Below are positions 1 to 4,285 of a DNA stretch of 49,346 nucleotides, piece by piece. Source of the DNA: Planctomycetia bacterium (GTDB lineage: Bacteria > Planctomycetota > Planctomycetia > Pirellulales > PNKZ01); NCBI GenBank assembly GCA_021413845.1, contig JAIOPP010000027.1, positions 1-49,346 on the forward strand. The letters run 5' to 3'. Position 1 is the first letter of the stretch; every line of letters starts with the position of its first letter. The notes beneath the pieces are model-generated. The model saw only the letters and a program-made list of their open reading frames with translations, made no database searches and had not been told where the DNA came from. The position numbers and the translations under genes were made by a program.

Positions 1-1
1 G

Positions 2-136
2 CTCGTCGAGCGTTGGAAGGTTGAATACAACACGATCCGTCCGCATAGCTCGTTGGGCTATCGACCCCCGGCTCCCGAGGCCGTTCAAGCTTGGTCTTTT
101 CGCTACGCTGCGCTCCGCGAAAAGACCAAGCTTGAT
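2..136 (+). CDS. IS3-family transposase, C-terminal fragment (cut by window start)
   Basis: The frame read from base 2 gives the end of a DDE integrase-core (OrfB-type) transposase: the motif 'YNTIRPHSSLGYRPP' is the classic C-terminal signature of IS3/IS481-type transposases. Only about 44 residues are visible because the window starts inside the gene, so intactness cannot be judged. The reading frame runs through a long hairpin (86-135) and stops at its 3' foot, so the last 15 or so residues are hairpin-encoded and probably not part of the original protein. It lies at the outer edge of an accessory block that also carries a serine recombinase. Family assignment is firm; the exact IS group is not. 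Confidence 0.8.
86..135. repeat. Perfect 15-bp inverted repeat (hairpin) at transposase 3' end
   Basis: CAAGCTTGGTCTTTT (86-100) is the exact reverse complement of 121-135. The 20-nt loop carries an additional CGC/GCG pairing. The hairpin spans the last codons and stop of the transposase fragment. It could act as a bidirectional terminator or mark an IS end or junction; no clear T-run follows on the plus strand. Confidence 0.75.
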
Positions 137-165
137 TCTTGTAGAAACTAACGCAACACTTGGTA

Positions 166-1311
166 TCACGCGTGGGGGCAGGTCAACTCCGCCGCAAAAC
201 CGGCTTTCAGCAAGCGGCGGCCGGTGCGGTGGCGCTGACCCTGTTCGTCGAGCTGCAGGGTCGTCACATCAAGATCACTTCGCCGACCGAGGCGCTCCGT
301 TTCTAAAGACTCGCGGTAAAAATCGGCCGTGACCCCCAACGCATGCAATAGACGGGGAAACGCCCGGCGAGCGTCCTCACCGAGATAGTCGGCGAGCAGC
401 TTCTTGCCGGTCTCAGTGCGGATCAGTAGGCCACCGATCGGGTGCAATGCCAAGATATGGCCATGCAGTAGGTGGCACGGGCGATTGCGATCGTTTGAAG
501 GAACCTGGAGCTCTAAGTTCCACATCCGATGAAATCGGCTCGATTCTCGACTCAGGCCGTACTTCTTTTCGAGATGCCCAAGGAGCACACCCCAGGCAGC
601 GGAGTAGCAGCGATGCAACGCGGCGCGGCATTCGTAGGAGAGCAGATCAAGGGCGATCTTCTCGTCCTCGCACCCCCGACGCCGTCCGACGGAGCGAGTC
701 AGGTCGGCCCAAACAGTTCCGGCCGCCTCCAACGCATCTCGGCCCGATGTATTCATCGCGCTGCGACCGGCATCCATCAGCTGCGAATGAAAGTCATCGT
801 AGGCCGCACCCGTTTTCGGCCCCCAATCGGGACAGCCCAACACCTTCTCGGTAAAGCGGTGGAATTGCGCCGGGGTCATTTCTTGAGACGCTGACTCGAC
901 CAGAAGTTTTTCCAGCATCGCGCGTTCTTGTACGCCACCGCGTGGCGAACGCTTCGGAATTGCGTCCTGAAACGTCCGGCCGGCGCCGTTGCGGCGCGTA
1001 ATCGGCAGCAGTTTCGCCATGAGATAGCTCTCTTGCACTTCCGGCTCGTGATTCGTTCCACCGAGCCGACACAGCGCTCGAAAGAACTCGACGATCGTTT
1101 CACGGCGGCGCGCTCCATCGCGACCGCCGTACAGACTCCGCGTATCCATCCAAAACTGGTCGATGACGGTTTCGGAGAGACGAGTTGTCTTGTGATACAG
1201 TTCGAATGAGAACGTCTGAAGCTGCAACATCGGCTGCTTTGGTTCCGGACCGGTCGGCGCATCCGGCTGAAGCTCCAGAATAACGATCTTCTCGACGGTC
1301 TTCGTAGGCAT
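166..1311 (-). CDS. Hypothetical protein, 381 aa, in mobile region
   Basis: I do not recognise this protein. The start at 1311 is supported by a good Shine-Dalgarno (GGAGGAG six bases upstream of the ATG). The product has no signal peptide or membrane segment and looks soluble and mostly helical, with many charged residues and scattered Cys (for example 'YECRAALHRCYSAAW' and 'LGCPDW'). Nothing visible amounts to a metal site or catalytic motif. It follows the sigma-like gene (ending at 1480) on the same strand with a 168-bp gap and ends about 30 bp from the IS3 fragment. Its place beside a recombinase suggests an accessory gene of the integrated element. No function is assigned. Confidence 0.6.
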   Translation of the reverse strand: MPTKTVEKIVILELQPDAPTGPEPKQPMLQLQTFSFELYHKTTRLSETVIDQFWMDTRSLYGGRDGARRRETIVEFFRALCRLGGTNHEPEVQESYLMAKLLPITRRNGAGRTFQDAIPKRSPRGGVQERAMLEKLLVESASQEMTPAQFHRFTEKVLGCPDWGPKTGAAYDDFHSQLMDAGRSAMNTSGRDALEAAGTVWADLTRSVGRRRGCEDEKIALDLLSYECRAALHRCYSAAWGVLLGHLEKKYGLSRESSRFHRMWNLELQVPSNDRNRPCHLLHGHILALHPIGGLLIRTETGKKLLADYLGEDARRAFPRLLHALGVTADFYRESLETERLGRRSDLDVTTLQLDEQGQRHRTGRRLLKAGFAAELTCPHA

Positions 1312-1479: not shown

Positions 1480-2073
1480 TCAATTCGTGTCGTATGCGCC
1501 CCCGCAGTAGTTGCTCCAGTGGTTATGGAGCTCGCGACGGATCTGACTGATTCGTCCGGAACTCAGACGGTGTCGTTGGGCTACCGTGCCGACAGACTCG
1601 CCATCGCGAAGCGACGCCACGATTTTGCGCTCACGTTGAGGAAGAGTTCGTAGCCAAGCGTCGAAGTCGCAGCGGAAGCCGACTTGATCGGTAACGGCAG
1701 GCGAATGGTCGACGAGAGCGGCATCGCTTCGGCGCCCTCCGTCATCGGCGAAGTCGATCAATCGCCGGACTTGAATGCGTCGGCGGCGCTGTGCCGCCGG
1801 CGACATGACGTCACATAAGGTGAACCGACAACCGATACGACGACCGGCATGGAATTGTCGTACGGCGTAACGAACCAAGGTGACAGGCTGCGCTAACGGC
1901 CGAAGGCGGCGTTCGCACAGTCTTCGAAAAGCTAGATAGCAATGTGCGGTCGCTTCGCAAATCGCGTCTTCCCGATCGGCGGGGCGTAAGTCACGGAAGG
2001 CCCGATGAAGTCGAACTTCAATTTCGGGCAGTAGCTCGAGAAAAGAATCTTGGGCGTAGACGGCCCGCTTCAT
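1480..2073 (-). CDS. Sigma-70 region 4-like / HTH protein of mobile element
   Basis: A 197-aa protein whose C-terminal ~50 residues look like sigma-factor region 4: 'LPQRERKIVASLRDGESV' followed by a helix-turn-helix ('GTVAQRHRLSSGRISQIRR'). The N-terminal half ('DREDAICEATAHCYLAFRRL') resembles a degenerate sigma region 2. GGAGG precedes the ATG at a short spacing. It probably binds DNA and may direct or modulate transcription of the element; whether it is a true sigma factor is open because the core-binding region is poorly conserved. It is divergent from the small ORF and recombinase at 2366-4070, an arrangement I associate with planctomycete mobile elements. A 63-codon frame ending at 2070 overlaps its start but is not convincing. 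Confidence 0.6.
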   Translation of the reverse strand: MKRAVYAQDSFLELLPEIEVRLHRAFRDLRPADREDAICEATAHCYLAFRRLCERRLRPLAQPVTLVRYAVRQFHAGRRIGCRFTLCDVMSPAAQRRRRIQVRRLIDFADDGGRRSDAALVDHSPAVTDQVGFRCDFDAWLRTLPQRERKIVASLRDGESVGTVAQRHRLSSGRISQIRRELHNHWSNYCGGAYDTN

Positions 2074-2365: not shown

Positions 2366-2614
2366 ATGCCGAGGGGCTCGCAAGCCGAACGTTCCGCTAC
2401 GGTACCTACCGCGTCGCTCCCTCCGGGCGCGCCCGCGTGGGTCACGACGGAGCTGTTGGCGAACACGATCGCCGTGTGGCAACCGTATTACTCGGAACCG
2501 TTGTCCGACCAAACCGCGCTGGATCTGGTGCTGGGGGTCGGTCGCCTGTTCGCTGCTTTGGGAGACGTTGATGAAGATGCGCAGGAAGTACCTCGCCCTC
2601 GCACGGGTCAGTAG
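2366..2614 (+). CDS. Small conserved ORF upstream of serine recombinase
   Basis: An 82-aa product with a plausible conserved core: 'LPPGAPAWVTTELLANTI', then 'AVWQPYYSEPLSDQTALDLV', then 'VGRLFAAL'. The 3' end overlaps the recombinase start by about 44 bp in another frame, which suggests translational coupling. From memory, short proteins of this type sit directly before site-specific recombinases in planctomycetes; their role is unknown, with a recombination-directionality or regulatory role a guess. The start codon is uncertain: the first ~17 residues look poorly conserved and a later start is possible. There is no membrane segment. Confidence 0.5.
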   Translation: MPRGSQAERSATVPTASLPPGAPAWVTTELLANTIAVWQPYYSEPLSDQTALDLVLGVGRLFAALGDVDEDAQEVPRPRTGQ

Positions 2615-4070
2615 TCGCGAGCAGGAACGCGAGGGATTCAGCCTCGAAGTGCAAGAATCCGCGCTAGAGCGTTATGCCGAGCAGCACGACGGCAAGATCG
2701 TCAAGCTGTTCCGCATCGCCGAAACCGCTAGCAAGCCGCAAGAGCGGCAGGCCTTCAAAGACTTGCTCGTCTACGCGAAGAAGCATTCCAGCGAGCTCGA
2801 CGGTGTGTTGTTCTTCAAAGTCGACCGCGCGGCCCGTAATCTCTTCGACTACGTCGAGCTGGAGCGTCTGGAGTTTGAGCACAAGCTCGAAGTCATCTAT
2901 GTCACGCAGACGACCGAGAACACGCCGGCCGGGCGCATGATGCGCCGCACGCTCGCCAACATGGCGAGCTTCTACACGGAGCAGCAATCGCTCGACGTCA
3001 AGGACGGCTTAGAGCGGCGCGTTCAAGATGGACTGTTCGTCGGTAAGGCACCCTACGGCTACGCGAACGTGCGACGAGACGGACGCGGCTTGATCGAGGT
3101 CTATGCCGAGCGTGCCGCCAACATCCGGCGCATCTTCGACCTTTACGCCTATCACGGCTTCTCGGTCGACGGGCTCGGCCGCAAGCTCTTCGCGGAAGGG
3201 ATCTTTTATACGCCTAGTGCGCCGCGGTTCGCCCGCAGTAAACTCCACACGATTCTGCGCGATCGCGCCTACATCGGCGAAGTTTTCCATCAAGGTCAAT
3301 GGCACCGTGGCACGCACGAACCGCTGATCGATCGTGGTACGTTCGATCGCGTGCAGGTTCTCCTCGGAAACAAGGTTTATCAAAGCCACGAGCTGACGTA
3401 TGCCGGGGAGCTCATCAAATGTGATCACTGCGGCTATCCCATCACCGGCGAGCGCAAGACAAAGCCGACGAAGAACGGGCCTAAGGATTATATCTACTAT
3501 CGCTGCAGCCGGTACAACACCCCGGACCACCCTCGGGTTCGCGTACAGGAAGCGGACATCGAGCGCCAGGTCTTAGAGATGTTCGAGCGGATTCGGATAA
3601 AGGATCAAGCGGTCCGCGATTGGTTCGCCCAGGTGCTCCGCGCGAAGAATAAGTCGAGCTTGCAAACGAACAAGGATCGGATCGCCGAGCTGACGCGACA
3701 GATCACGAGCCTGCGCGACCAAGAAGAGCGACTGCTCAACCTGCGCCTGCTGGAAGAGATCGATAGCTCGACCTACTCGCGAAAGAGCACGGAGCTTCGT
3801 GATCGCACGGCGCAGCTCAGTCTGCAGATCGACGCCTGCGATCGTGATCGCGCCGAATACGGCGACTTGGCCGAGAAAGTGTTTGAACTTTCGCAAAGCC
3901 TTACCGAGAAGTGGCTTAATGCGGATGTTCGTGCCAAACGTCGATTACTCGAAATCGTCTGTTTGAACTTTTCTCTCGTCGACGTAACTCTCGTTGCCGA
4001 AATGAGAAAGCCCTTCGACGTGCTCGTCGAAGGGCTTGTTTCTAACAACAGTCGGGGCGACAGGATTTGA
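2571..4070 (+). CDS. Large serine recombinase (resolvase/integrase family)
   Basis: A site-specific DNA recombinase of about 499 aa. The N-terminal resolvase domain begins 'YLALARVSSREQ' with the nucleophilic serine near residue 14, and continues with 'FFKVDRAARN' (arginine-containing active-site segment) and 'MASFYTEQQS'. The Recombinase domain follows ('GKAPYGYANVRRDGRGLIEV', then 'LHTILRDRAYIGEV'). A zinc beta-ribbon comes next with CxxC near 284-287 and one Cys near 312; the fourth ligand may be His near 320. A coiled coil spans roughly 355-440. ATG 2571 or 2577 is preferred to the TTG at 2568. The 3' end is unusual: the final codons are encoded by a 13-bp hairpin and by a tRNA-Pro 3'-half remnant. 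It probably integrates or excises the element to its left. Confidence 0.9.
   Translation: MKMRRKYLALARVSSREQEREGFSLEVQESALERYAEQHDGKIVKLFRIAETASKPQERQAFKDLLVYAKKHSSELDGVLFFKVDRAARNLFDYVELERLEFEHKLEVIYVTQTTENTPAGRMMRRTLANMASFYTEQQSLDVKDGLERRVQDGLFVGKAPYGYANVRRDGRGLIEVYAERAANIRRIFDLYAYHGFSVDGLGRKLFAEGIFYTPSAPRFARSKLHTILRDRAYIGEVFHQGQWHRGTHEPLIDRGTFDRVQVLLGNKVYQSHELTYAGELIKCDHCGYPITGERKTKPTKNGPKDYIYYRCSRYNTPDHPRVRVQEADIERQVLEMFERIRIKDQAVRDWFAQVLRAKNKSSLQTNKDRIAELTRQITSLRDQEERLLNLRLLEEIDSSTYSRKSTELRDRTAQLSLQIDACDRDRAEYGDLAEKVFELSQSLTEKWLNADVRAKRRLLEIVCLNFSLVDVTLVAEMRKPFDVLVEGLVSNNSRGDRI
4008..4037 (-). terminator. 13-bp perfect hairpin, terminator-like for the tRNA-Pro remnant
   Basis: AAGCCCTTCGACG (4008-4020) pairs exactly with 4025-4037 across a TGCT loop. 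Read on the minus strand, the hairpin lies about 13 nt past the 3' end of the tRNA-Pro remnant and is followed by TTCTCATTT, the arrangement of a tRNA gene's own terminator. On the plus strand it lies inside the last codons of the recombinase. Confidence 0.6.
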
Positions 4071-4102
4071 AACCGCGACCTCTTGGACCCCATCCAAGCG
4101 CG
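4051..4102 (-). other. tRNA-Pro(GGG) 3'-half remnant, likely attachment site
   Basis: On the minus strand the sequence gives an anticodon arm (CTTGG, loop ATGGGGT, CCAAG) with anticodon GGG, a variable region, a T-arm with loop TTCAAAT, and the acceptor 3' strand GTCGCCCCGAC. The 5' half (acceptor 5' strand and D-arm) is not recognisable, so this is not a functional tRNA. The T-stem also carries a change (GGTTTC where GGGTTC is expected). It overlaps the last codons and stop of the serine recombinase, as expected of an att site carried or captured by an integrating element. Confidence 0.65.
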
Positions 4103-4187
4103 TTTTGCTTACGTACGCGGCTGAAGCGGTGCTCCTCCGATGGAAAAATCGACAACAACGGCGCGTAGCGATGCCTGCTTATTTCGT

Positions 4188-4249
4188 GGCCAAAAACTTT
4201 GTCTTAGCCGGCCAGGCACTTTGTCTCAAAGGCCAAAAACTATGTCCCA
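4188..4249. repeat. Three direct repeats at 21-22 bp spacing (IS21-type end?)
   Basis: Three copies of a 19-bp unit start at 4188, 4210 and 4231: GGCCAAAAACTTTGTCTTA, GGCCAGGCACTTTGTCTCA and GGCCAAAAACTATGTCCCA. Spacing is close to two helical turns, as in the multiple transposase-binding repeats at the ends of IS21-family elements. No transposase is adjacent, so this would be a solo end or scar. The IS21 link is inference. Confidence 0.55.
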
Positions 4250-4285
4250 CACCACGCGGTATAATTGTCAGTTATCCCGTCTGTT

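Follow-up and report, generated by a model that had tools for sequence, protein, structure and literature searches.

A planctomycete serine integrase gene that ends inside its tRNA target, with a putative built-in terminator and a C-terminal tail that integration may remove

The window analysed here, 49,346 nucleotides of Planctomycetia bacterium DNA (assembly GCA_021413845.1, contig JAIOPP010000027.1), is the entire contig C27 of the genome that we denote G000. Near its left end lies a gene for a large serine recombinase that runs into the antisense strand of a partial tRNA-Pro(GGG) gene (Table 1). Pfam searches revealed a Resolvase catalytic domain followed by Recombinase and Zn-ribbon domains, PHROG annotates the protein as 'integrase', and a 45-sequence alignment shows invariant residues. 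The minus strand of positions 4051-4102 corresponds to the 3' half of tRNA-Pro(GGG), with the D arm truncated, and matches the intact tRNA-Pro(GGG) gene of the same genome (C6, 18162-18236) with 96% identity over 54 bp (E 8.5e-19). The recombinase open reading frame terminates at a TGA 20 nt within this remnant. A previous sequence-only reading of the stretch had recognised the tRNA-Pro(GGG) remnant and had proposed that tRNA sequence codes the integrase C-terminus, and both points were confirmed, the former by alignment, with the qualification that the copy is truncated, mutated and damaged: it carries two T-stem substitutions, its homology ends at 4102, ARAGORN did not call it as a gene in the window and Rfam returned no match above its cut-offs there. 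Probably the tRNA was truncated after integration and the att site at this position is dead. The same reading had traced a recurring spurious GATGFE peptide to such an arrangement, and indeed another frame over the tRNA reads VGATGFETATSWTPSKRV.

Table 1. Features at the left end of the window (positions of the whole contig; strand left empty where none applies)
Feature	Position	Strand	Basis
381-aa protein, probably cargo of the element	166..1311	-	Homolog upstream of the integrase in L086, 41% identity
Sigma-factor-like protein, probably cargo of the element	1480..2073	-	Sigma70_r4 E 4e-4, below the Pfam cutoff
Small ORF, 82 aa (WVTTELLANTIAVWQPYYSEPLS...), overlapping the integrase start	2366..2614	+	Homologs near the integrase start at 25 of 34 distinct integrase loci searched
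Large serine recombinase (integrase), 499 aa	2571..4070	+	ORF, Pfam, PHROG 'integrase'; model of homolog L157
Arg-Lys codons AGA AAG, antisense of which is the U-rich tract of the predicted tRNA-strand terminator	4005..4010	+	Codon use
Predicted terminator hairpin within the KPFDVLVEGL codons, 12-13 bp stem	4008..4037		Fold, covariation
Spacer in the element's left att arm, with antisense TTAGAA-like motif	4038..4050	+	Constant spacing; motif by inspection
tRNA acceptor 3' strand, attributed to the element; codes integrase Ser-Arg-Gly	4051..4059	-	attL/attR comparisons, tRNA-Ser (G562) and tRNA-Pro(TGG) (G037)
Remaining tRNA-Pro(GGG) remnant of the former target: T arm, variable loop, anticodon arm	4060..4102	-	Alignment
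Integrase stop TGA, antisense of the T loop	4068..4070	+	Direct reading; also seen in relatives whose T loop is TTCAA

The 82-aa product encoded upstream of the integrase has no Pfam family over the cutoff and no PHROG, and its position makes it a candidate accessory factor or recombination directionality factor (RDF); on a viral contig (locus L276), a distant serine recombinase carries at its C-terminus a fused stretch that resembles it by eye. The 381-aa protein matched neither Pfam nor PHROG, and the sigma-factor-like protein also has a homolog upstream of the integrase in L086 (46% identity). The contig starts inside an IS-like transposase fragment (window 1-160, by inspection), which is probably the reason why the assembly stops there. 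To the right of the tRNA remnant, a repeat of ~90 bp (4166-4254, 90% identical to C146 10775-10863 of the same genome) precedes the elongation factor P gene; it may be the end of an insertion element responsible for the damage to the tRNA. Homology to the compared relatives starts at the elongation factor P gene, with G006 also showing short matches to the repeat.

Homology searches gave matches at E <= 1e-30 in 39 of 196 relatives and at E <= 1e-40 in 51 of 392 genomes of the phylum, and a scan of database contigs added two relatives, one of them apparently from an organism already represented. L086 and L057 look like the same organism. From these sources we compiled 60 loci with flanks, representing the best matches and not all of them, and inspected every C-terminus. 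In 40 of the 60 an intact tRNA or tmRNA gene adjoins the integrase, the targets being tRNA-Pro (all three anticodons), tRNA-Met, tRNA-Ala, tRNA-Glu, tRNA-Lys and tmRNA; a truncated tRNA, or a contig end inside one, was seen in 14 (L075 and L085 are degenerate), and the remaining six continue into a non-tRNA tail. The hallmark of tRNA islands, an intact tRNA at the integrase end, is thus displayed by these 40 best-match relatives but not by the window copy. The integrase and the RNA gene overlap by exactly 20 nt in 24 of the 40 loci with an intact RNA gene, and in five loci whose T loop reads TTCGA, not TTCAA, there is no TGA at this position and the overlap extends to 56-58 nt (88 nt in a sixth such locus, L161). 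Similarly, of 32 IMG/VR loci examined (from 43, with 11 partial or weak loci left out), 28 terminate within a tRNA or at the stop that its T loop provides (an intact tRNA-Pro is present in 14, two of them near-identical, and a truncated one in four, and ten contigs end at the stop or inside the tRNA), one locus is open at the contig end and three distant ones (28-30%) have no tRNA. Plasmid and phage relatives are distant only, with all records below 60% identity. The structure predicted for L157, a tailed homolog of 531 aa, has the overall fold of a large serine integrase, including the long coiled coil (helices 343-390 and 396-447; pTM 0.40), and its best Foldseek matches are the solved Bxb1, phiC31 and A118 integrases and other serine integrases, with long alignments at low TM-scores that probably reflect domain movement. 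Judged by these comparisons, tRNA targeting, as the sequence-only reading had suggested for the recombinase, is a family trait, as are the tRNA-coded C-terminus and a hairpin placed like a terminator.

This hairpin is formed by the integrase codons for RKPFDVLVEGL, just before the tRNA, and its placement as a tRNA terminator, likewise noticed earlier, held up. Folding of a 141-nt region gave z = -2.96 versus shuffles, and hairpin and tRNA end occur together in 30 of the 196 relatives, compared to none with a reversed-pattern control. In an alignment of 42 of the 45 distinct sequences (pairing is good in two of the other three and poor in L168), 80% of cells pair, and two-sided changes were observed in 21 cells versus 7.1 in shuffles, with none of 500 shuffles as high. 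In eight sequences a silent CCC to CCG change (Pro) is accompanied by a GGG to CGG change in the partner that converts Gly to Arg, so that the stem is preserved at the protein's cost. Moreover, 49 of 56 homolog loci use AGA for the Arg before the hairpin; in 23 of these genes, this codon accounts for 2.8% of the 1186 Arg codons elsewhere. AGA-AAG reads CUUUCU on the tRNA strand, where it would serve as the U-rich tract of the terminator. We take these patterns to mean that the sequence is under selection as a hairpin, which may terminate the tRNA transcript. The possibility that the terminator was copied from the host tRNA was rejected, as the flank of the intact tRNA-Pro(GGG) gene is unrelated; since tRNA similarity stops just past the 3' end, the hairpin belongs to the recombinase gene and not to a copied host flank. 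The expected likeness to the intact gene was found for the 3' half but not for the terminator and flank, which show no similarity to 4008-4050. This dissimilarity does not refute tRNA targeting because the element would contribute no more of the tRNA than its final ~9 nt, along with its own terminator, and a tiny shared core is expected of a serine integrase.

Junctions of the attP type helped to position the crossover. In G562, four such junctions within 11 kb before an intact tRNA-Ser(GGA) gene are the same as the tRNA through GCGGAGAGG and then diverge, and in G037 a tRNA-Pro(TGG) gene and a far junction 1.3 kb apart are identical through TCGGGGCG(A) before diverging. The acceptor 3' strand would therefore come from the element and the rest from the chromosome. 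These comparisons narrow the recombination core to the last bases before the acceptor/T-stem boundary and suggest that strand exchange takes place there, which at the window site would correspond to the 4059/4060 boundary. A crossover at the GA in the T loop, our first reading based on G005, was rejected because the tRNA-Ser array and G037 diverge right after the acceptor strand. The earlier idea that integration keeps the tRNA at one side and the integrase stop at the other was not upheld: both lie at the same end, with the stop derived from the T loop of the target. A NTNGAAC motif is located 15 nt from GTCGG in 31 of 31 tRNA-Pro sites (for seven of them, after allowing for the different 3' ends set by ARAGORN) and 20 nt from GTCGG at attP-type junctions. 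The 20-nt spacing also holds at five junctions found without the tail pattern described below (L157, L165, L083, L124 and L175), the motif being absent at L076 and L078 (two of the six tail-type loci) and at junction L126. It seems that the zinc-domain motif of attP is located 5 bp further out than that of attB, as in large serine integrases. The T-loop sequence is found in nearly all tRNAs, and its use as the attB motif would explain the target range.

The single-contig genome G300 harbours a 78-kb element with an intact tRNA-Pro(CGG) gene at the integrase and a tRNA end plus tail at the other end, its cargo including a conjugative coupling protein, a ParA/MipZ-like ATPase and an efflux pump, and in G408 the integrase and a far end composed of tRNA end plus tail are 28 kb apart. 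A displaced tRNA 3' fragment marks the far end in G300, G005, G408, G037 and G562. Among ten long stretches around integrase genes, two had a clean far end (G300 and G005), three had none within 80 kb (G051, G069 and G474) and five showed degenerate, mismatched or other junctions (G092, G191, G498, G554 and G011). A candidate far end 27 kb away in G498 was not used, since its junction is without the 20-nt motif and could be part of a different element; junctions in G092 mismatch the present tRNA halves, and the candidate in G011 has another tail type, with the right-hand 100 kb containing no tRNA or further integrase. Arrays of ~1-4 kb units between attP-type junctions were seen in G562 (C82 15166-25796, tRNA-Ser) and G037 (C343 1324-2725, tRNA-Pro), some of them retaining only the last integrase codons; these units are apparently non-autonomous cassettes.

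At attP-type junctions the integrase frame continues through a further ~23-45 residues that form a conserved tail, a feature that is not visible from the window and is absent from the sequence-only reading. The common (type-1) tail reads T(A/P)(I/L)ELF(I/V)AGVRGWE..LRR, and other families read EPW... or, in the window's genome, LEPL..DA.AWPG. Type-1 tails are known from tandem arrays, decayed integrase copies and far ends; neither a circular form nor an intact full-length integrase with such a tail was seen. In integrated elements the tail stretch is positioned at the far end, behind a tRNA fragment, where no integrase gene is present. Pattern searches detected eight sites in 5 of 392 genomes (reversed control, one) and nine sites in 5 of 196 genomes (reversed control, three), the two lists comprising 592 names and overlapping, and exact sites numbered only 17 in 10 genomes versus four with the reversed control. 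Such low numbers relative to the control imply that tails vary widely, are frequently lost, or escaped the search. A clear tRNA 3' end precedes 15 of the 17 sites and a degenerate one precedes L215; L203 has none before it and was dropped from the codon test. The nine tails of this test, one per genome, were chosen after a wider comparison of 21 tails had been seen; they come from the 17 tails that remained in that comparison once four with poor alignments (L218, L205, G191 and G498) had been excluded from its pairwise counts. In codons 8-19 the ratio of synonymous to nonsynonymous single differences was 122:60 in the integrase frame versus 30:115 and 56:108 in the other frames, counts that are taken over pairs and hence not independent, and one of 5000 column shuffles reached a fraction as high as that observed. 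The tail thus appears to be under purifying selection in the integrase frame; as it is so selected although located at the far end without the integrase gene, it would be translated where the two are joined, that is on circles or in tandem arrays. In L157 the tail is predicted to be helical, albeit poorly (pLDDT about 50). The window's genome itself has four tail junctions (on contigs C80, C85, C131 and C157) with 0-1 mismatch to a 17-base spaced pattern, taken from 11 sites at <=2 mismatches and compared to ~0.08 expected from base composition. None of them can be assigned to the window integrase because the contig starts inside the IS-like fragment, and neither a partner att site nor a far end was found for the element in the window.

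Several other explanations were weighed against these data. That the recombinase is unrelated to the tRNA remnant, the latter being left by a tyrosine-integrase element and adjacent by chance, could draw on tRNA-Pro(CGG) halves with breaks close to the anticodon loop on contig C26 of the window's genome, one of which adjoins a tyrosine-recombinase-like ORF of 603 aa (family by inspection), and on several fragments beside serine integrase genes that break in the T or anticodon loop. It is extremely improbable, and at the family level already refuted, given that 40 of the 60 best-match homologs adjoin intact tRNA or tmRNA genes of several kinds, 24 of them overlapping by exactly 20 nt, and that attP-type junctions break elsewhere and carry integrase codons. 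The hairpin might also act for the integrase mRNA instead of the tRNA, on the basis that its stem is symmetric and able to act on both strands and that the integrase gene ends ~33 nt past it. We regard this as very unlikely, for termination at the hairpin would drop the integrase stop codon, the sequence past the hairpin on the integrase strand is variable, and a rare codon, AGA in 49 of 56 loci, fixes the U-tract of the tRNA strand.

Two further alternatives accept tRNA targeting and concern the tail. The tail could be nothing but the outer DNA arm of attP, its frame having no protein function. In support of such a role, the first seven tail codons include the DNA motif GAACTTTTTNTCG, in which synonymous sites are conserved as well, although part of this motif had itself been used to find the tail loci, and tail families vary between elements. 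By contrast, codons 8-19 hold their amino acids while the codons vary (Gly9 is conserved in 17 of 17 tails, using four codons), hardly any shuffle (1 in 5000) scores as high, and in-frame tails of several unrelated types exist, so that we consider a mere DNA arm unlikely. Alternatively, the tail could be a degradation tag as in phage BPs, rendering the free-form integrase short-lived and the integrated form stable. In BPs, integration removes a 33-residue C-terminal piece with an ssrA-like tag (extracts of PMC4557955 and PMC9262239), and two of our tails (G191 and G498) end in LAA; yet the other 19 of 21 do not, and conservation resides in the first ~19 residues and not at the extreme end. A tag has a low probability, below that of a role in directionality.

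On balance, we think it highly probable that the window holds attL, the integrase end of a mobile element whose integration into a tRNA gene rebuilds the tRNA and its terminator and exchanges the integrase tail for a stop. Comparison shows the tRNA targeting, the overlap, hairpin selection, the junction sequences and in-frame conservation of the tail. In this model the large serine integrase would insert the element into a tRNA gene at the acceptor/T-stem boundary, the conserved T-loop sequence forming half of the chromosomal attB, and the element arm would supply the tRNA's final ~9 nt together with a short spacer and the terminator hairpin made of the C-terminal integrase codons, such that both tRNA and terminator are restored. 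On the free circle the frame would cross attP into the conserved tail and yield a long integrase, and integration would replace the tail by the T-loop-derived stop to give a short one, the tail being cut off because the 5-bp difference brings the TGA of the T loop into frame. The long form, from an incoming or excised circle, would perform integration, and the short form, made thereafter, would be held there unless an accessory factor acts, perhaps the small upstream protein. We think that the tail controls either the direction or the lifetime of the recombinase; a role in directionality specifically is a proposal to which we give slightly less than even weight. Equally tentative, and held with somewhat under half of our confidence, is the wider picture of a phylum-wide group of serine integrases that use the T loop as half of attB to enter many tRNA targets, whose circle-only tail, cut at integration, provides built-in directionality and whose ends are shared by small non-autonomous units (down to ~1.3 kb) in tRNA-anchored arrays.

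Directionality control is a central question and a practical limit of serine integrases. An integrase that alters its own C-terminus by integrating would make directionality directly testable, with two natural isoforms that have the same active site and differ by ~30 residues. The family would also provide integrases aimed at a conserved RNA-gene motif, offer a DNA segment constrained in three ways at once (as protein, terminator and att site) and explain a class of spurious tRNA-antisense annotations.

The planctomycete family shares domains and fold with large serine integrases such as A118/LI, TP901-1, Bxb1 and phiC31, and also the 5-bp shift between attB and attP motifs, a displacement of the zinc-domain motif that an extract of PMC3783163 reports for A118-type (LI) integrases. 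It differs from them in its tRNA/tmRNA targets, in integrase codons that double as tRNA end and (putative) terminator, and in a frame that crosses attP. Serine-integrase mycobacteriophages do not use tRNA genes, according to the part of PMC9262239 consulted. Rare precedents for serine integration into tRNA genes do exist: the Mycobacterium serine-recombinase AICEs (tRNA-Leu) and phage phiRSM (tRNA-Ser), as partially available sources describe them, likewise combine a serine recombinase with a tRNA target. For phiRSM, 13 bp shared with tRNA-Ser are placed at the 3' end in the portion of PMC3218068 consulted and in a table of PMC4471427, whereas the text of PMC4471427, in the excerpt at hand, puts the identity at the 5' end. 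The partial descriptions of AICEs and phiRSM, on which this comparison is based, mention no overlap of integrase and tRNA, coded terminator or tail swap. Integration-dependent immunity of BPs also involves an attP within a coding gene, a tRNA target and the loss of 33 C-terminal residues (excerpts of PMC4557955 and PMC9262239); there, in the same excerpts, the switched protein is the repressor, paired with a tyrosine integrase, whereas here attP lies in the gene of a serine integrase that would itself be switched. Archaeal suicidal tyrosine integrases (SSV1, pTN3 and pT26-2) similarly contain attP in the integrase gene, which integration alters, but they are split into int(N) and int(C), as outlined in the section of PMC8371274 consulted, and the planctomycete ORF would lose only its tail and leave the catalytic enzyme whole. 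Within the open-access PMC literature, searches found nothing on planctomycete tRNA-targeting serine integrases, on a tRNA terminator made of integrase codons or on an integrase that loses its tail when it integrates, and no match for the combination of a tail swap with a built-in terminator.

A second recombinase, 34-49% identical, is encoded just upstream of the tRNA-overlapping one in G191, G011, G474, G498, G087 and G128; in the four of these that were read, its C-terminus is short, RTPLELFRAG* (G191 and G011), RTRLELFRAG* (G498) or GTPLGQLSA* (G474), and involves no tRNA. Finally, the 603-aa tyrosine-recombinase-like ORF on C26 (L052, 14836-16647; also L003 and L006) ends in a tRNA-Pro(CGG) 3' half directly preceded by a hairpin, with a second CGG remnant 10 kb away and restriction-type genes in between (families by inspection), and is a parallel solution by a tyrosine integrase.
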